Assembly: GCA_005239865.1 (NCBI GenBank) | Contig: SBBC01000058.1 | Span: 1-34,835, forward strand | Source: Candidatus Microgenomatus auricola | GTDB taxonomy: Bacteria; Patescibacteriota; Patescibacteriia; SBBC01 | Length of the DNA: 34,835 nt | Direction of reading: 5' to 3' | Shown here: in pieces, positions 410 through 19,730 of the stretch | Layout: each line of letters starts with the position of its first letter | Numbering within the stretch: position 1 is the first letter of the stretch | Position numbers and translations under genes: made by a program | Notes under the pieces: generated by a model | What the model saw: only the letters and a program-made list of their open reading frames with translations | Told to the model about the DNA's origin: nothing | Databases searched by the model: none

Positions 410-3400
410 ATGGCTCACGTCTTGACGCAGCGACGTTTCGTAGCGTACGCGACCGTACTCCGGATCGCGTTCGTGCTTTTGGCGGCCGGCCTGCTGACCA
501 CCTTCGTGCCCTCGAGCAGCCGGGCCAACGACTTCGTCAAGCTCGGCTCGCCGTTTGCGAGTCCGGTCAACCTGCGCAGCATCGCCACGGTCTACGACCG
601 GATCCCGAGCACATACGAGGCCTGGGCCGCGGGTGAAGAAATCGGGACCAATCAGGGCGTCCTCTTGTATTTCAACGGCACCTTCTGGACGAACATTCCG
701 CTCGAGGCCGGGACGCCGGGCCTGACCGGAGTCAGCGGACTGCGTTTCCTCACAAACCAGGACGCCTGCCAAAACACCTATTCGTCTTTCCAACTATGGC
801 AGTGGAAGACGACGGCCTGGGCGGTTGGGAAAAGCGGAACAATCCTGAAGCTCGATCCCTACTCAAAGGCCTGGAACGCGGAGAAGAAAGTGAACGTCGA
901 TCTGTGCGTTAACGGGACGAACAACGGTTCGCTCTGCGATACAACGGCGAACAAAAATGCCTGTGCCGCAGGCGGCGGAACCTGCCAGAGCGGTCCATCG
1001 CGAAGTTGTACGCCGACCGAGCTCAAGCGACCAGATGTATGTGCTGGCGGAACTCTTCCGGGATCAAACAATGGTACGCTCTGTCCAAATGGTAACAGCG
1101 ATTGCACTGGAAATGCGACCTGTACGAACGTTTGCGCGAACTGGACTTCAATCGACTTCAACGCCGTGGCCGCAGCGCATACCTCGAAAGCCATCGCCGT
1201 CGGACGCGACCCGGATTCAAATCCGCCCGACATCCGGCCGCTCTTTACCTACAAGGAGACGTTGAGTACCGACAACGCGGCCTCGACCTGCGAAAACAAA
1301 AGGTTGATCCAGCGCACCTGGGAGCAAACAACTGACGGTGATTTTGCCTATGACGACGATGTCCGGGCAGCGTACTACATTGACAAAGACCATGGCTGGC
1401 TGGCTGGCCGGGACGCAAGCGGCAAAGGAAAGTTATGGAAGTATAGCCAAAAAGACGGCTACACGAATGAAACTCTCAACCTTGGAACTGCGGCCAACGG
1501 CACAACCTTGACCAGCGTGGTGGCGACGTTCAACGCGACACCCGCGGCCATCACGCCTGGGCAACCACTGAAGAGTTTGGTCTGGCTTGGCGGCGAGGGC
1601 GCGCCGAATAAAATCATCCGCTATAACGAGGCCGGCCCGGCTGTTTCGTCATCTCCGACGACGGCGCCGGTTCGCGCGTTGGCATTGACTCGGCGCATGG
1701 GTGGGCGAGGAATAAATCTAGTTACCAATCCGGGATTTGAAGCGGACCGTCTTGATTCGAACGTTCCGAACCACCGGCCCGACGGCTGGGAGCCAAGCGG
1801 AAGTTATCTCAATGCATTGGGAAACGGCGCGCACACCTCGTTTCTTGATCCCGGCGGGTCTTCCGGAAGGGCTTACGTCGGTGAACCCTGGCAGAGTATT
1901 TCCGGCATCAAGAGCGAAGCCCTTGGGATGGGACTCTTTGCGACGCGGTCTGGGATGGCCGGGACGAATTTCCCGGTTGACTACTGGGGCTGGTCGAGAG
2001 AGGATCGTGGCCAAATCGTGACGACCTTTCAAGATCCGGATTTCATCACCAAGATTCTTTCGAACTCCGGTCTGACTGATAAACCATTTCAGACGGTCAC
2101 CATCGACGATGTCAACGTGACCTTGGCGCCCTACGAAGTCGGGACGGTCTTGTACGGCCTGGTGAAAATTCCGGACAATACCGCGCCGAAAACGTACCAG
2201 TTGAAGATTGAACAGTTGGGTTCGCAGCCGGGGCGAGTCGCATTCAACATCGAGAACGATCGGAACGACCGCGAGTGCGAATCGGATGGCTCGCCGACCG
2301 GCCAGTTGTGTCCTAACGGCACCGAGTGCCCGGCTGGTCAGAGCTGCGTTGACCGCACGTCGTTTCCGTCGATTGTTACCCAACCCAACATCAGTAACTC
2401 GACCGTCTCCTGGCGGGTCGGCACCTGTCAGAACGTCGGAACGTACAACGGGACGCCAGTCCAGTGCTTTGACGATTCAGAGTGCTACTGGGGGACCTGC
2501 AGTTCGGATTCGACGCAGCTCTGTCAAAAGGATACGGAGTGCCCGCGGAAGTGCTCGAATCAGCCGTCGCTATTATGCACCGGTGGTCCCAACGACTGCC
2601 AGTTCTGCGCGACAGACCCTAGTTCGCAGTGTTCAAATCAAGACGACTGTCCGGGGCTGTGTACAGACGGCACCACGCCGTGTTTTGACGTCGGCCAATG
2701 TCCACCGGGCCAAACAACATGTTCGTACCCTTTGGCCGGAAGCTGTCAAGGCAACCCTGGCTTTTGTCCGGTTGCGCCAACCTGCAATATGTGGGACACG
2801 AGCAGCGGAAACTTGTGCGGTGGTCCTGCTGGAACACCCTCGAGTCCAGGGCCGGTCAGTACGATCGTGACCTTTCCGGCGTATGGCGGAATCAAGCTCA
2901 AGGAATGCGCGAATGGAACGAATGACGGGACCTCCTGTACTACCGCTGCCCAGTGCACCGGTGGCGGGACGTGCCAGGTTCGGGGGAGCGGCTGGTATCC
3001 GTTCGCCATCCAGTACTACCAGCCCTGGACTCCGCGGTGCTCGAACGACGGGCTGATGCCGTGCGCCAAGGACGCGGACTGCGACGGAGGATTCTGCCAG
3101 ATTGGGGAGTGGTGTTCAAGCAGCCACCAGGCATGTTCGGTCGCGTCGCCGTGCGGCGCGGGCGAGGGGGTGTGCGGCTACACACCGAACGCACCGCAGA
3201 GTTCATTCCCGAGGTTCTGTACGAACGTAGGGTTCATTGGTCAATCATGTACTGGCGCCGCCGCTGACTGCGGGGGTGATCCCGGTTCCTGTCTCCCGCT
3301 CCGGTACAAAGGCACCTGCAACGGCGGCACGAAGCATGGCCAGGCCTGCCGGAATATGGCTGATTGTCCGGGTGGAACTTGCCGAATCGAAACCGAACCG

Positions 3401-6400
3401 CCGTCGGTTCTGACGTTTCAGTATCGAGAGCAGGGAACTGCTGCCTGGATAGATATTCCCAACGCGGCCAAGGACAATCTCCTGTCCCCGACCCAGAGTT
3501 TGCCGCAATCCGAGGTCAAGCAGGAAATACCGCTGTCGCTCCTCCCGGGAACGGCCTATCGAGTTTCCGGAAAATACAAGCTTGAGTTCAGCGATCAGTT
3601 CGATCAGTACTCGGCTGCTGATCCGCGCTGGAACCAGCGGCCGCACGCGGGCGTCATGACGCGCTGCAAAAACTCTAGTTTAGGAACTTGCGGCTACGAA
3701 ATCAACCTCTTCCAGGGCGACCGCAGCTACGGGGTCGGGAGCGGCAAGTGCCAGCTTGATTCGTCAATCTCGTGCCAGACGAACCAAGAGTGCAAACCCC
3801 CGAACCAGGCGACCGACAATGGCATTTGCGTCGGTGACTGGCAAAATTTTTCCGCGGTCGTGACCAATCAGTACTACGGTTCGTTCGGGAGCGATCCGGG
3901 GCAGAGTCTGGAGATCGTCTGTTTCGCCGACGTCGGCGCGAAAATCACCTGCGACGAGCTTTCGGTCACCCCGGAAAACGAAGCGGCTGTCACCGCCTTT
4001 GACTTGATTGACGTCTGGGCCGTCGGCGATCAGGACGGAAGCGGCGAGGCGATCGTATACCGCAACACGTTTGACGTAAGCGCCGGGACCGTGCCAAGCG
4101 ATTCATGGCAGCCGCAAAAGCCGCCGGTCAAAGCGCGGCTGACATCGATCACCGCGGCCGATCCCTATCATTTCTGGGCGGTCGGCGAAGCGCCGCTCGG
4201 CGGGGACGCGACGATTCTCCGGTTGAGCCCGGGGAACGTGACTGGCTGGGCCTGGGTCGGGACCTCGACCAATCAGAGCGATCCGATCGGCTGGATTGAC
4301 TTCAACTGCGGCAATCAAGGAACGTGCGCCAGCCAGCCGTCCAGCTTCGGCGTCAACGTCAACGACAGTGATACGTACGGGCAGTGCGCGAACAACCTGG
4401 CTAAAGCCTGCACGACCGCGAATGAGGTGGCGGATTGCGGAGGCGTCGGACAGTGCGTCAAAGGGGTGATTTCGGGAAGCGCTTGGCTCGGAAGTCAGGA
4501 CAGCAACGAAACCGTTGACTTCGGACCGTGTACCAGCCCGACCAACGGTAAGTGTTCGATTGGGTCGTGCACCGGCGATCCAACCGTTGCCTGCTCGGAC
4601 AACAGACCTTGTCAGCGGTGGTGTCGGAATTCAGCCGACCCGTCAAGTTCCTCGAATCAGCCATGCTCAACAACCGCCAACTGTACCACGCCCGGTGAGA
4701 CCTGTGTGAATAATACCTCGAGTACCTGCTCCTTTCCATCGTGTGCTTTAAGCCGCGACTGCAGCGGCAACAACAATCAGTGCAAGTTCGATGGATCTTG
4801 CAATGACACACTCGGTCAATGTTACGAAAACTCGGCGCGGTTGTGTCCCAATTATATCGCGAATTTGTGCAACGGCGTCTGCAGCCAGAACCAGGGGTTT
4901 CGGTGCATCAATGATAGCGACTGCAAAATCAAGTGCAGCAGCAATCCGCTGGCCTGTCGGTCGAGCGGGTGGCTGTCATTCGACAAGTCGGTGACCGGAC
5001 CGCCGCCGGATCCGGCCGCCGCGGCCAAGCCCTATCTCGCAAAATTAAATCTCTCGACAGATGCGATTGAGGGCTGGGGCCGGCTGCAGCTTGGAAAATG
5101 CAACGGCGGAGGAAACAACGGCTTGGCCTGTTTTCAAGACAGCGACTGCGGAGGCGGCAGCTGCGACTACTCGAACGCGCCGTCCAAGTCGCTGCCCGGC
5201 GTGACTGATCCTGACGCGGAAGCCGGCTGGGTGAAATTGCGCGGCGGCTCAACCGGTCCGGTCAACGGCTCGGACCGTTTCGTGGCCTGCAAGGACTGTA
5301 CGGCCAATGCCAACCCCCCCAACCAGCAGGCCTGCAAAATTTGCACTGATTCTCAACCCTCATCATTTCCGACGTGCAATGATTGTTCACAATGCACAGC
5401 CAAATGGTGTTCGGATAAAACCACGCCGTGCAGGACGAATAATGATTGCGTAGGGCTAGGAACTGGGTTGTGCAAAACCGCAGGCTTTTGTAGCGGCACG
5501 ACCAATCGCTGTTTTACCGACTCCGATTGCCCTGGGGTCAGTTGCACAACCTACGGCGGCACATGTTCGTCCTGCAACCAATGCAGCGTCTACGGAGTTT
5601 CGATCGATAGCGGCGGGACGAAGCAGTTCTCCGGTTTCGCCTGGAGTCCTGATCTCGGTTGGATTGACTTCAGCACCCTCCGCCTCGGCGGACAACTCTT
5701 CTTCCAAACGAAGTTCGGCGACATCTACTCGGGCCAGAACGTCGGTAGCACACTGACTGGGGTTCCGCCCGGCTTCCCCGGCGGCTCAACGGAATGCAAC
5801 GCCACCTATCGGATCGTGGCGACCGGAACAATTACGAACTTCTGTTCGAGCGCGCCGATCAGCGGCGGCGTATCGGCCTTTCTTCAGCCCGGCGCGCCGC
5901 TCTTCCCGCTCCCGCAAGCCGAGAATCGCTACCGGTCGCAGATCGGCGAGATTGACCTCAACGGACTGACCACGAAGGTCAGCGGCAATCGCAATAAGTT
6001 CGGCGACGTGGTCGAGGAATTGTCAGGTAATCGTACGCTCAAGGAATACTTCGCCACCCGCGATCCGGCCGCCGATCATGACACGCCGCTCCTCGGCAAG
6101 GTGTATCACGTCACCGGCGATCTGACGGTTGACGAGAACTTGACGTTCGACCCTCCGGCGAACGCGAATCCCCCCGGCGTCCCGCAGGAGAGCGGCGCCG
6201 GCACGTTCGTGGTGGACGGCAACCTGACGATCAACGCCAATCTGTTCTACCTCCCTTCGCCGTCGGTCGGGATCCGGGAACTGCGGCAACTTCCGTCGCT
6301 GGCGTTTATCGTTAAAGGGGACATCACGATTGACTCCAGCGTTTCCCAGCTCGTTGGAACGTATTTCACTGAAAAAACGGTTACTGTTGAGAGCGCTGCG

Positions 6401-6598
6401 AGCGGCGACAATCAGTTGGTCGTGCGCGGGGCGATGGTCGCGCAACAATTCGATTTCAAGCGGAAGTACATCGGTTCCACCGGCGCGATCGAGCCAGCGG
6501 AGAAAGTCATCTACGACGGCCGGCTGCAGGCAAACGCGCCGCCCGGACTGGCCGCTTTGGCTCAAGGACTCCCCGACGTCCAAGAAGTGGTGCCGTGA
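410..6598 (+). CDS. Very large secreted Cys-rich protein (2062 aa) with beta-propeller-like repeats, many C-x(n)-DC-x-GG-x-C repeats and 'GWAW...GWIDF' repeats; candidate pilus-associated surface/adhesin protein
   Basis: N-terminal hydrophobic signal-like segment (RIAFVLLAAGLLTTFVPSSSRA). Repeats such as CANGTNDGTSCTTAAQCTGGGTC and CNGGGNNGLACFQDSDCGGGSC. WAVG/WLAG propeller-like blades. GWAWVGTSTN..GWIDF and FSGFAWSPDLGWIDF. Lies upstream of pilM. Confidence 0.85.
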   Translation: MAHVLTQRRFVAYATVLRIAFVLLAAGLLTTFVPSSSRANDFVKLGSPFASPVNLRSIATVYDRIPSTYEAWAAGEEIGTNQGVLLYFNGTFWTNIPLEAGTPGLTGVSGLRFLTNQDACQNTYSSFQLWQWKTTAWAVGKSGTILKLDPYSKAWNAEKKVNVDLCVNGTNNGSLCDTTANKNACAAGGGTCQSGPSRSCTPTELKRPDVCAGGTLPGSNNGTLCPNGNSDCTGNATCTNVCANWTSIDFNAVAAAHTSKAIAVGRDPDSNPPDIRPLFTYKETLSTDNAASTCENKRLIQRTWEQTTDGDFAYDDDVRAAYYIDKDHGWLAGRDASGKGKLWKYSQKDGYTNETLNLGTAANGTTLTSVVATFNATPAAITPGQPLKSLVWLGGEGAPNKIIRYNEAGPAVSSSPTTAPVRALALTRRMGGRGINLVTNPGFEADRLDSNVPNHRPDGWEPSGSYLNALGNGAHTSFLDPGGSSGRAYVGEPWQSISGIKSEALGMGLFATRSGMAGTNFPVDYWGWSREDRGQIVTTFQDPDFITKILSNSGLTDKPFQTVTIDDVNVTLAPYEVGTVLYGLVKIPDNTAPKTYQLKIEQLGSQPGRVAFNIENDRNDRECESDGSPTGQLCPNGTECPAGQSCVDRTSFPSIVTQPNISNSTVSWRVGTCQNVGTYNGTPVQCFDDSECYWGTCSSDSTQLCQKDTECPRKCSNQPSLLCTGGPNDCQFCATDPSSQCSNQDDCPGLCTDGTTPCFDVGQCPPGQTTCSYPLAGSCQGNPGFCPVAPTCNMWDTSSGNLCGGPAGTPSSPGPVSTIVTFPAYGGIKLKECANGTNDGTSCTTAAQCTGGGTCQVRGSGWYPFAIQYYQPWTPRCSNDGLMPCAKDADCDGGFCQIGEWCSSSHQACSVASPCGAGEGVCGYTPNAPQSSFPRFCTNVGFIGQSCTGAAADCGGDPGSCLPLRYKGTCNGGTKHGQACRNMADCPGGTCRIETEPPSVLTFQYREQGTAAWIDIPNAAKDNLLSPTQSLPQSEVKQEIPLSLLPGTAYRVSGKYKLEFSDQFDQYSAADPRWNQRPHAGVMTRCKNSSLGTCGYEINLFQGDRSYGVGSGKCQLDSSISCQTNQECKPPNQATDNGICVGDWQNFSAVVTNQYYGSFGSDPGQSLEIVCFADVGAKITCDELSVTPENEAAVTAFDLIDVWAVGDQDGSGEAIVYRNTFDVSAGTVPSDSWQPQKPPVKARLTSITAADPYHFWAVGEAPLGGDATILRLSPGNVTGWAWVGTSTNQSDPIGWIDFNCGNQGTCASQPSSFGVNVNDSDTYGQCANNLAKACTTANEVADCGGVGQCVKGVISGSAWLGSQDSNETVDFGPCTSPTNGKCSIGSCTGDPTVACSDNRPCQRWCRNSADPSSSSNQPCSTTANCTTPGETCVNNTSSTCSFPSCALSRDCSGNNNQCKFDGSCNDTLGQCYENSARLCPNYIANLCNGVCSQNQGFRCINDSDCKIKCSSNPLACRSSGWLSFDKSVTGPPPDPAAAAKPYLAKLNLSTDAIEGWGRLQLGKCNGGGNNGLACFQDSDCGGGSCDYSNAPSKSLPGVTDPDAEAGWVKLRGGSTGPVNGSDRFVACKDCTANANPPNQQACKICTDSQPSSFPTCNDCSQCTAKWCSDKTTPCRTNNDCVGLGTGLCKTAGFCSGTTNRCFTDSDCPGVSCTTYGGTCSSCNQCSVYGVSIDSGGTKQFSGFAWSPDLGWIDFSTLRLGGQLFFQTKFGDIYSGQNVGSTLTGVPPGFPGGSTECNATYRIVATGTITNFCSSAPISGGVSAFLQPGAPLFPLPQAENRYRSQIGEIDLNGLTTKVSGNRNKFGDVVEELSGNRTLKEYFATRDPAADHDTPLLGKVYHVTGDLTVDENLTFDPPANANPPGVPQESGAGTFVVDGNLTINANLFYLPSPSVGIRELRQLPSLAFIVKGDITIDSSVSQLVGTYFTEKTVTVESAASGDNQLVVRGAMVAQQFDFKRKYIGSTGAIEPAEKVIYDGRLQANAPPGLAALAQGLPDVQEVVP

Positions 6599-6606
6599 GG
6601 AATGAG

Positions 6607-6639
6607 CGGGTTAGCGCGTTGGCGGTTTAGCGGCTTGGA
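6607..6639. repeat. Short-period degenerate repeat GGGTTAGCGCGTTGGCGGTTTAGCGGCTTGG, similar in style to the IVP-element arms
   Basis: ~8-9 nt periodicity around TTAGCG/TTGGCGG in the junction before pilM. Confidence 0.4.
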
Positions 6640-9848: not shown

Positions 9849-9878
9849 CGTCAACCGTCAAGCTTCAAGCGTTAACAC
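9849..9878. repeat. 7-nt periodic repeat CGTCAACCGTCAAGCTTCAAGCGTTAACAC
   Basis: GTCAACC/GTCAAGC/TTCAAGC/GTTAACA tandem units in the pilO-9889 gap. Confidence 0.4.
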
Positions 9879-13497: not shown

Positions 13498-13531
13498 AGG
13501 TTTTAGGAGGTTAGGTGTTAGGTTTTAGGAA
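13498..13531. repeat. Left arm of inverted repeat flanking the four-helix-bundle pseudogene
   Basis: TTAGGTGTTAGGTTTTAGG (13511-13529) matches the reverse complement of 13841-13865 at 17 of 19 positions. Confidence 0.8.
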
Positions 13532-13540
13532 AATTTGAGC

Positions 13541-13829
13541 ATGAAGACGCAAACGAACTCCTACAAGGAGCTGAAGGTTTGGCAGAAGTCAATGGACTTA
13601 GTAGTACGAGTGTACGAATTAACCGAGGCGTTTCCGAAGGAGGAAGTGTAAGGCTTGACCTCGCAGGTACGGAGATCCGCAATTTCAATTCCCTCAAACA
13701 TCGCTGAAGGGAAATACCGCCGACAAAACGTCTCGATCTCCATGCCGTCGAGGTATCCTTGACGAAGTCATGAAGATGCTGAATGCCATGATCACCAGGC
13801 TCACGACGTCAACTCATGTTCGCTCCTGA
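13541..13829 (+). pseudogene. Four-helix-bundle protein (S23/IVP family) pseudogene
   Basis: YKELKVWQKSMDLVVRVYELTEAFPKEEV*GLTSQVRRSAISIPSNIAEGKYRR, then internal deletion/frameshift and terminal EVMKMLNAMITRL; TAA where the intact copy has TAC. Confidence 0.85.
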
Positions 13830-13840
13830 CCCCTATCTTG

Positions 13841-13865
13841 CTAACCCCTAATACCTAACACCTAG
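13841..13865. repeat. Right arm of inverted repeat flanking the four-helix-bundle pseudogene
   Basis: CTAACCCCTAATACCTAACACCTAG; ends 3 nt before the pilC ATG. Confidence 0.8.
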
Positions 13866-13868
13866 CTC

Positions 13869-16283: not shown

Positions 16284-16317
16284 ATAGCTTCATTAGCTGG
16301 TTAGCTTGTTAGGAAGA
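16284..16317. repeat. Solo repeat arm nearly identical to the left arm of the 18.6-kb element
   Basis: AGCTTCATTAGCTGGTTAGCTTGTTAGGAA vs AGCTTCATTAGCTTCGTTAGCTTGCTAGGAA at 18565-18595. Confidence 0.75.
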
Positions 16318-17195: not shown

Positions 17196-17840
17196 ATGGA
17201 CGTCAAAAGTCAAACGTCAAAAGTCAAACGTTCTGCCGGGTACACCATGATCGAGCTCCTCATCAGCGTCGCGATTTTCATGTTCCTGGCAACGATCACG
17301 GCCTTCGGGTTTCGCGGAGTCGGGCAGGCGAACAGTTTGCGCCAGGCCGCAGCGGAATTGGTGGCAAATTTACGTCGCGCCCAGACGCTGGCACAAACCG
17401 GCGCCACCGTCACCCTGTGTCGCGGGCTCGTGCCGGTGAAACTCTGTTCAAGTTCGACGGACTGCGGCGGCGGGTTCTGCGACGACGTCCGGGTGCCGAA
17501 AAACGGGTACGGAGTCGTTCTCGGGTCATCGCCGCCGAGCACAACCTATCTTCTCTACGCCGAATTGAGCGACCCGGCAGACGATTATCAAGTCGACACG
17601 GACGTCATCATCAATCAGGGAACGATGACCATGACGAAGGATACGAGCATTTCCGGAGCGACCGCCCTGGCCATGCTCTTCAAGCCGCCGCGGGGAGAGG
17701 CACAGACGAGTAGCGGCGGGGCCTTAACCTCGCACACCTACTGCGTGAAACACTCGGCCCTTCCTTCCCTGGCCAGGAAGGTGACGGTTTTGGGTTCCGG
17801 GCAAATCCAGGAAGAATCGGATTCAAGTTGTTCGCCATGA
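17196..17840 (+). CDS. Minor pseudopilin (GspH-like) with Cys motif
   Basis: SAG|YTMIELLISVAIFMFLATITAFGF; contains CSSSTDCGGGFC. Confidence 0.9.
   Translation: MDVKSQTSKVKRSAGYTMIELLISVAIFMFLATITAFGFRGVGQANSLRQAAAELVANLRRAQTLAQTGATVTLCRGLVPVKLCSSSTDCGGGFCDDVRVPKNGYGVVLGSSPPSTTYLLYAELSDPADDYQVDTDVIINQGTMTMTKDTSISGATALAMLFKPPRGEAQTSSGGALTSHTYCVKHSALPSLARKVTVLGSGQIQEESDSSCSP
17202..17230 (+). repeat. Perfect 14-bp tandem duplication (GTCAAAAGTCAAAC)x2 within the prepilin leader coding sequence
   Basis: 17202-17215 is identical to 17216-17229. Confidence 0.9.
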
Positions 17841-18559
17841 GCACGACCCGGATGAACCAACGCGGTCAGGGATTGCTCGAAGCGATTATTGGCATCGGCG
17901 TCATCATCGCCGGCACGGTCGGGACGGTGACGCTGATCATGGCGACGATCAAAGCCGGTCGCTCAACCAACAACCAAGTGGTTGCGGCCAGTTTGGCGCG
18001 CGAGGGGATCGAGGTGGTGCGCAACCTCCGCGACACGAACTGGCTCCGCATTCAGGCGAACGAGGACACTGACCTCGCCGCCCCCGGTCTTCAACCCCCA
18101 AGCAGCTTCGAAGGCATCTTTTCGGCAACTGACCCGAAGCATGATGCCATTCCAGTCATGAGCGTCTCGACGTCCAGCTGGACCATCGAGCGCTATACGC
18201 CCGGCCCAGCGTCGTGCGGCGGGGCGTGGGATTGCAGTCAGGTGTACCAGGCACCGCCGAGTACGCGGTACTTCCAGGATTTCGCTTCGGCCACCCTCAA
18301 CCGTCAGCCCACGCGGTTCAAACGGACGATTCGGCTGAATCCGATCTGCCGAGTGGATGCAAGCCCGGCCGATGGTATTCCGGATGTGCCAGCCACAGAA
18401 ACGATCGCGAACGGTGACGGCGCGGTCTGTCCGGTGATTCCGGCGATTACGACGATGGTCGGGTTGCAGGTCTTGAGCAAAATGACCTGGGATGAAGGGG
18501 GCAGCCCAAAATCATTCCAGCTTGAGGCGCGGCTGTATAATTGGAAGTACGTTAAATAG
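17837..18559 (+). CDS. Minor pilin (PilV/GspI-like)
   Basis: QRGQG|LLEAIIGIGVIIAGTVGTVTLI; 4-nt ATGA overlap with the previous gene. Confidence 0.85.
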   Translation: MSTTRMNQRGQGLLEAIIGIGVIIAGTVGTVTLIMATIKAGRSTNNQVVAASLAREGIEVVRNLRDTNWLRIQANEDTDLAAPGLQPPSSFEGIFSATDPKHDAIPVMSVSTSSWTIERYTPGPASCGGAWDCSQVYQAPPSTRYFQDFASATLNRQPTRFKRTIRLNPICRVDASPADGIPDVPATETIANGDGAVCPVIPAITTMVGLQVLSKMTWDEGGSPKSFQLEARLYNWKYVK

Positions 18560-18595
18560 CTTAAAGCTTCATTAGCTTCGTTAGCTTGCTAGGAA
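18560..18595. repeat. Left arm of inverted repeat flanking the four-helix-bundle gene
   Basis: AGCTTCATTAGCTTCGTTAGCTTGCTAG matches the reverse complement of the right arm at 24 of 28 positions. Confidence 0.85.
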
Positions 18596-18910
18596 ATGCG
18601 AGTAATTCATTCATACCGAGAACTGACCGTTTGGCAACGATCAATGGAATTGGTTGCGGATATTTACGAACTGACTGAACAGTTTCCAAAAGAAGAACTT
18701 TACGGATTGACGTCACAGTTGCGCCGGGCGGCAATTGCCATCCCATCGAACATCGCCGAAGGAAGATATCGGGGAACGAAGAAGGATTATTCGCAGTTTT
18801 TGAGAATTGCCATGAGTTCCGGCGCCGAGTTGGAGACGTTGTTGGAGATAGCGAAAATGTTGCCAAGCACTAAAGATTTGCAATCTGCACGAGCTGATTC
18901 GTTGTTGTAG
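18596..18910 (+). CDS. Four-helix-bundle protein (S23 rRNA-intervening-sequence / TIGR02436-like), C-terminally truncated by an in-frame TAG
   Basis: YRELTVWQRSMELVADIYELTEQFPKEELYGLTSQLRRAAIAIPSNIAEGRYRGTKKDYSQFLRIAMSSGAELETLLEIAKML; reading past TAG gives EVMKMLNAMIRNMN, matching the other copy. Confidence 0.93.
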   Translation: MRVIHSYRELTVWQRSMELVADIYELTEQFPKEELYGLTSQLRRAAIAIPSNIAEGRYRGTKKDYSQFLRIAMSSGAELETLLEIAKMLPSTKDLQSARADSLL

Positions 18911-18954
18911 GAGGTCATGAAAATGCTTAACGCCATGATCCGAAACATGAACCC

Positions 18955-19000
18955 AATTAGCTAAAAAGCTAATGAAGCTAACGAAGCTAGCACCTAACAA
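18955..19000. repeat. Right arm of inverted repeat flanking the four-helix-bundle gene; overlaps the start of the next prepilin gene
   Basis: AATTAGCTAAAAAGCTAATGAAGCTAACGAAGCTAGCACCTAACAA. Confidence 0.85.
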
Positions 19001-19730
19001 TCTTCCCTCACACGGCTTCACCCTGCTCGAATTGATTGTCGCCGCTGCGATTTTCAGCATCGCCCTGCTCGTCGCGACCGGGCTGTTTGTATCCATCACC
19101 CGCGGGCAAAAGCGCGTCCAGTCGCTCTCAAAAGTGCAGGACGACGCGCGCTTTGTGCTTGAGCAGATGACACAATCCGTCCGGCTCGAGGGGATCGATT
19201 ACTCGTATTACCGCGACCCGAACGGTGATGGCGATCACAGCGACCGTCTTACCTTAAGCACGCCAGCCCAGGAGCTGGTGACTAAGAACGCCGACGGTAC
19301 GCGGACATTCTACCGCTGGATTCCGAGCGCCGCGCCGACGAAATTGGCGGTCTGCACGCAAGCACCGTCTGACGCCGGGACGAAGTGTCAACCAGATTCG
19401 GCCTTTACCGACGTCACGCCAAAAACGATTACCATTACGGACTTCAAAGCGTATATCCGGCCATTTTCCGATCCGTTTGCTCTACCGCCGCGAACCGGAT
19501 CCGATTGTTTGACCGCCGCTAATTTTGTTCCGACCAAAGGTATTTGCACGTGCACCGTCCCGACGGATTGCTTTGACGATCAATCCTGCGCGTCGGGACT
19601 GTGCTTGAACCCCAATCTCCAGCCGCGGGCCACTCTCCTCATCGCGTCGAAAGGCGGCAGTGCCAAGCCAGAGGAACAGGTGACGCTGACGTTTCAAACG
19701 ACGGTCTCCTCACGCCTCTACAAGCGCTAA
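18972..19730 (+). CDS. Minor pilin (PilW/GspJ-like)
   Basis: PSHG|FTLLELIVAAAIFSIALLVATGLFVSI; CTCTVPTDCFDDQSCASGLC Cys motif. Confidence 0.88.
   Translation: MKLTKLAPNNLPSHGFTLLELIVAAAIFSIALLVATGLFVSITRGQKRVQSLSKVQDDARFVLEQMTQSVRLEGIDYSYYRDPNGDGDHSDRLTLSTPAQELVTKNADGTRTFYRWIPSAAPTKLAVCTQAPSDAGTKCQPDSAFTDVTPKTITITDFKAYIRPFSDPFALPPRTGSDCLTAANFVPTKGICTCTVPTDCFDDQSCASGLCLNPNLQPRATLLIASKGGSAKPEEQVTLTFQTTVSSRLYKR

Follow-up and report, generated by a model that had tools for sequence, protein, structure and literature searches.

A four-helix-bundle IVP gene framed by inverted short-unit arms in a type IV pilus operon: probable copy of a widespread mobile element related to 23S rRNA intervening sequences

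In REPIN/RAYT systems, the repeat that flanks one protein gene also occurs throughout intergenic regions, in inverted hairpin pairs. The 23S rRNA intervening sequence (IVS) of Coxiella burnetii, about 430 nt long, has an S23p/IVP open reading frame, tandem heptamers (GACAGAT) ahead of it, and inverted ends that form a 28-bp stem; it has been called a selfish element and is excised by RNase III (PMC4990558). The S23/IVP family has solved structures (2GSC, 2RLD), yet no role is known for it outside 23S rRNA. Bacterial heptamer arrays have been reported earlier without an account of their origin: GGGAATC heptamers, inverted pairs among them, in Xanthomonas by Rehm et al. (PMC4692102), intergenic GGGGATT arrays in Nostoc (PMC4692102) and TAACTGA arrays in Beggiatoaceae (PMC4679880). 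Neither PMC4692102 nor PMC4679880 mentions S23 or four-helix proteins, and in the open-licence literature we found nothing that joins S23/IVP to intergenic heptamer arrays, which is not proof of novelty. Linking the two would give both a testable role and define a mobile-element class without a recognisable transposase, and the old question of the origin of 23S IVSs becomes approachable through the IVP elements of laboratory cyanobacteria and of further hosts that are not pathogens.

The window, that is, the whole stretch of DNA analysed (34,835 nt), is the entire contig C30 of a 1.0-Mb genome in 58 contigs (G000). It contains a type IV pilus operon that extends from pilM through pilW and further; ahead of pilM, the pilus cluster also has the gene of a 2062-aa cysteine-rich repeat protein (410-6598). 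The features at the pilV-pilW junction are as follows.

17828-18559, + strand: pilV-like minor pilin gene, left neighbour of the IVP element, with its stop codon at 18557-18559.
18565-18592, + strand: left arm, AGCTTCATTAGCTTCGTTAGCTTGCTAG, made of ~9-nt units (TTAGCTTCA/TTAGCTTCG), on the G/TAG-rich strand, starting 6 nt past the pilV stop.
18596-18964, + strand: IVP (four-helix-bundle) gene, PF05635 and TIGR02436, 122 codons including one in-frame TAG.
18908-18910, + strand: in-frame TAG of the IVP gene, with loss of the C-terminal stretch; read from the sequence and also counted as one internal TAG in the genome-wide search.
18961-18988, - strand: right arm, with reverse complement AGCTTCGTTAGCTTCATTAGCTTTTTAG, containing both the stop of the IVP gene and the start of pilW.
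18972-19730, + strand: pilW-like minor pilin gene to the right of the element; the right arm supplies its first codons.

An earlier, sequence-only reading of this DNA had proposed inverted arms around a four-helix gene between pilV and pilW, and the two arms indeed match in inverted orientation at 24 of 28 positions, with perfect inverted blocks of 15 and 14 nt, separated by 387 nt, returned by a repeat finder. The short-unit composition that it described also holds, since the ~9-nt unit pattern TTAGCTTCRTTAGCTT has five matches in the window compared with 0.14 expected from shuffles. The assignment to the S23/IVP family is confirmed by scores above the curated cut-offs for both PF05635 (121.9 bits vs 33.8; E 1.3e-32 for the gene as listed and 1.7e-35 when read through to 18964) and TIGR02436 (4e-35; 120 bits vs 24), and the closest solved structure is 2GSC. 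As for the gene bounds first given, 18596-18910, the start stands and the end has to be moved: the listed ORF is shortened by the TAG, past which the frame continues to a TAA at 18962-18964, within the right arm. The in-frame TAG indicates that this copy is probably decaying. Because the true stop of the IVP gene and the ATG of pilW (18972) both fall inside the right arm, the element is packed tightly between its neighbours. RNA folding predicts that the arms pair as a closing stem (-131 kcal/mol vs -112 for shuffles, z -3.0), as had been suggested, and an Rfam scan of the window matched a single tRNA-Pro and found no rRNA, in agreement with the earlier statement that none is nearby; the neighbours are pilin genes.

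The locus resembles the 23S IVS in its protein family, in its size, in the short tandem units ahead of its ORF and in complementary ends that are predicted to close a stem around the ORF. It lies between protein genes of an operon and not in rRNA, and thus differs from the 23S IVS in location despite the like anatomy; operon IVP elements differ further in being multi-copy and polymorphic, with gene-less derivatives. The best reading of the IVP element is that of a stand-alone relative of the 23S rRNA intervening sequences. What it shares with REPIN/RAYT is a flanking repeat that recurs around the genome in inverted hairpin pairs, as found in Xanthomonas and Luteimonas. In contrast to a RAYT, IVP is a four-helix bundle in which PF05635 alone was detected, with no Y1/HUH transposase domain, and its arms consist of short tandem units that vary from lineage to lineage and even among the copies that a single genome carries. 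Unlike an insertion sequence or DDE transposon, the IVP element encodes no transposase. The known heptamer arrays (GGGAATC, GGGGATT, TAACTGA and the cyanobacterial STRRs) share unit length and intergenic position with the arms, and those of Xanthomonas also occur as convergent inverted pairs and have a unit identical to that of IVP arms. Taken together, we consider it likely that the window locus is one copy of a mobile IVP element of ~0.4-0.5 kb, in which the IVP gene lies between a left arm and its inverted counterpart on the right, and which is similar in organisation to REPIN/RAYT.

Genes matching PF05635 were found in 192 of 287 genomes of the class, many of them with several copies, and in none of 14 control genomes; closer scans revealed up to 18 copies in one genome. 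Arms were scored as the best inverted match between the 154 nt upstream and the 160 nt downstream of an intact IVP gene, with a threshold of at least 16. The enrichment of inverted repeats around homologs that the sequence-only reading anticipated was evident: 90% of 101 intact IVP genes of the class reached the threshold, compared with 4.8% for dinucleotide shuffles, 9.6% for mismatched pairs of flanks and 10% where other ORFs took the place of IVP genes, controls that rule out chance or base composition as the source of the arms. In a larger class set 109 of 120 loci reached it, as did 81% of 73 loci outside the class, from many phyla (Proteobacteria, Bacteroidota, Acidobacteriota, Planctomycetota, Nitrospirota, Chloroflexota, Clostridia and others) vs 7% of mismatched pairs, and 20 Xanthomonadaceae IVP loci showed arms of like kind. 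Of 60 Xanthomonadaceae genomes, 27 have an IVP gene and 33 have none. The IVP element, probably mobile, is very widespread, occurring in more than 10 bacterial phyla.

The arms are built of tandem units, with a best period of 7 or 14 in 72 elements, 8 in 18 and 9 in 14, and the left arms are rich in G and TAG. Units vary widely from element to element but agree within one element. Stop codons in all three frames were present in 48% of arms compared with 24% of shuffles, an excess due in part to the repeat period. When only different genomes were compared, similarity in arm unit correlated with similarity in protein (r 0.37, 0 of 1000 permutations, uncorrected for host ancestry). An inverted orientation in every element is ruled out by a Pseudanabaena plasmid (L144), where an IVP gene between cas6 and cas4 has long direct arms, (AAAAGCT)n and (AAAAGCC)n. 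At three other loci (L051, L043 and L073) the IVP frame passes through the right arm into the next gene, giving fusions of 350-515 codons; the partner in L051 is a pilW-like gene.

The pilus operon of the window also contains a second, decayed IVP copy (~13510-13866) and a lone arm, both of which the sequence-only reading overlooked.

13510-13529, + strand: left arm belonging to this second copy, made of TTAGGTGTTAGGTTTTAGG units.
13541-13829 (bounds approximate), + strand: the second IVP gene, decayed, in the pilT-pilC junction, with an internal TAA and the frame lost.
13841-13866, - strand: right arm of this second copy, CTAACCCCTAATACCTAACACCTAG.
16284-16313, + strand: lone single arm, ATAGCTTCATTAGCTGGTTAGCTTGTTAGG, with a minor pilin gene on one side and pilD on the other; in the relative G001 that junction holds an IVP element.

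The second element has the unit TTAGG, unlike that of the pilV-pilW element. Two more short-period intergenic arrays, AGCGGGTTAGCG... (6605-6636) and CGTCAACCGTCAAG... (9849-9875), were seen in the window without an IVP gene. We compared the pil operon junctions of G000 with those of relatives in its order. The pilT-pilC junction holds a hairpin without a gene in both G002 and G003, built in G002 of AGCTTC, the unit of the pilV-pilW element of the window, and in G003 of TTAGG; in G001, G005, G006, G008 and G009 it is plain, with no element. At pilV-pilW, G002 carries an IVP gene whose protein is 80% identical to that of the window, yet its arms are TTAGG, so that similar proteins occupy the orthologous position with different arms, and in G009 the junction is plain. 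The comparison shows that each junction occurs in several states: plain, lone arm, gene-less hairpin and full element.

These junctions bear on whether IVP could be a vertically inherited resident of the operon, whose hairpin has a regulatory task such as tuning pilin expression. In favour of this, G000 and G002 both have an IVP gene at pilV-pilW, the distant G115 and G118 have one ahead of a pilW-like gene, and the orientation is strongly biased, since 85 of the 99 elements with both neighbours known are sense to both and 2 are antisense to both. Against residence stand the empty junctions of relatives, the decayed and truncated copies, the occurrence of multiple copies and the presence in unrelated operons elsewhere (CRISPR, nrd, conjugation), and we regard it as highly improbable; vertical inheritance as an operon gene was rejected on the empty sites and the varied contexts. 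The pilin operon noted at first is correct for the window but is not the general setting, as many kinds of operon host IVP elements. The simplest reading of the sense bias is that the element relies on host transcription.

Occupied and empty sites were compared in cyanobacterial plasmids, where IVP elements lie within CRISPR, nrd and conjugation operons. The empty junctions whose lack would have spoken against the sequence-only reading exist not only in relatives of G000, at pilV-pilW (G009) and at pilT-pilC (the five genomes above), but also at plasmid sites up to 98% identical, and with inverted repeats enriched around homologs as well, that reading is supported. One shared plasmid site (~98% identical) has the element in Trichormus and Scytonema and lacks it in Nostoc linckia and Aulosira: the occupied site reads ...AAAAAGTAAT-element-GTAATTAACAAAT... 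and the empty one ...AAAAAGTAATTAACAAAT.... Here the gene and both arms were gained or lost as a unit, with a 5-bp duplication (GTAAT), and the arm is absent from the precise empty version. A 3'-truncated IVP copy with a left arm was observed at this insertion site in plasmid E of Nostoc C052 (L251). The cas10-cmr3 junction is occupied in Picosynechococcus PCC 7003 and empty in PCC 7002; a plasmid of Synechocystis PCC 7338 (L151) has a Uma2-family gene at the same junction. Occupied and empty versions were also found for nrdB-nrdA and for an integrase junction whose genes are 3 nt apart, and the TraM junction exists in occupied, empty and gene-less hairpin versions. A clean target duplication was seen at one junction only (the 5 bp above), and others are short of 20-200 nt of target: one occupied site is without ~195 nt of host sequence and another has ~20 nt replaced. 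The mixed junctions suggest a process tolerant of imprecise ends.

Additional evidence of copying comes from G115 (L106, contig C19), in which a minor-pilin operon has three junctions in a row filled by elements that share one unit, each with both arms at its new site, and two of the three encode proteins that are 99% identical. A fourth IVP element, of another kind, lies near this trio.

In Xanthomonas and Luteimonas, where the IVP arms have the unit GGGAATC, this heptamer is also scattered without the gene: four genomes gave 188, 86, 91 and 140 exact tandem matches, and the one with 188, a Xanthomonas, has a single IVP gene. Dokdonella, with GGGATTC in its IVP arms, has 19 GGGAATC matches, and none were found in 15 other IVP-bearing genomes, whose arms differ; the reversed control pattern had zero matches in the genomes counted. 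Among these genomes, all IVP-bearing, GGGAATC arrays are limited to those with that arm unit or a near variant, which links arm and protein more strongly than the correlation does. In 275 kb of array-bearing regions from two such genomes, neighbouring arrays formed 32 convergent pairs (+ then -) vs 1 divergent pair, and the loops of the convergent pairs held no IVP remnants. The loops of gene-less hairpins at L380-L399 start with AAGC and end with GCTTT in 15 of 31 cases, compared with 3 in shuffles, and resemble host terminator stems with an arm on either side.

The abundance of gene-less arrays could also mean that the arms arise by themselves at gene junctions, through slippage of replication and template switching at hairpins, and that an IVP gene then inserts there or is retained. 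This would agree with G000, in which 25 intergenic arrays exceed the threshold (0.8 expected, 78% of the genome) and only 3 IVP genes occur, with the whole-unit differences in arm length between close copies, and with the loop ends in Xanthomonas, which often resemble host stem-loops. It is at odds with the precise empty site without an arm, with the G115 trio and its same-unit arms at new sites, and with the unit tracking the IVP lineage and mass arrays occurring only alongside an IVP of that unit; we judge it improbable. G000 itself has at least 3 gene-less hairpins, and its dispersed paired-hairpin pattern is weaker than that of Xanthomonas and Luteimonas.

Several observations count against the mobile-element reading: the different arms on similar proteins at pilV-pilW in the window and G002, the direct arms of L144, the single clean target duplication and the lack of any linked transposase or reverse transcriptase. 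For the likely mobile IVP element, the data suggest a way of spreading. Close pairs of IVP proteins have dN/dS of ~0.05-0.14, with dS saturated, and the low ratio indicates that the protein is kept by purifying selection. The element would be transcribed with the host operon, which would supply the promoter. Its arms may pair in RNA and be cut, by analogy with 23S intervening sequences, and such pairing and cutting would allow host mRNAs to tolerate the element. A multimer of IVP may recognise the arms, and IVP, by itself or in aid of a host enzyme, might bring about the copying of gene-less hairpins as well as full elements, in the manner of RAYT and REPINs. More tentatively, IVPs may be the master genes of a mobile-element class in more than 10 phyla that generates and spreads short-unit inverted hairpins by a mechanism resembling that of no known transposase, with the 23S IVSs, the Xanthomonas and Nostoc heptamers and probably TAACTGA as branches.

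The IVP gene might instead be a passenger that aids only expression or stability, the element being moved in trans by a Y1/RAYT-type transposase or a reverse transcriptase (RT). Profile searches found PF05635 alone in the gene and revealed no transposase or RT linked to the element. Across genomes, IVP is weakly and positively associated with both RT (odds ratio 2.0) and Y1 transposase families (2.1), an association that may merely mirror genomes rich in mobile DNA. The window IVP is also distantly but detectably related to Avd (NF033474, PF22296; 6e-6 and 2e-4), the partner of the RTs of diversity-generating retroelements, although it scores far under the family cut-offs (26.5 bits vs 80; bAvd 22.3 vs 40) and has no adjoining RT. 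As 45 IVP-bearing genomes have neither family, among them G237 with 15 IVP copies, and the co-occurrence is weak, an RT or Y1 transposase was rejected as an obligate helper, and we regard movement of a passenger gene by such an enzyme as unlikely. What would favour it locally is found in G002, a genome with PF01797 matches, where a Y1/RAYT-like ORF recognised by eye (L123, 7150-7850), with palindromes of its own, adjoins a lone heptamer arm before pilD.
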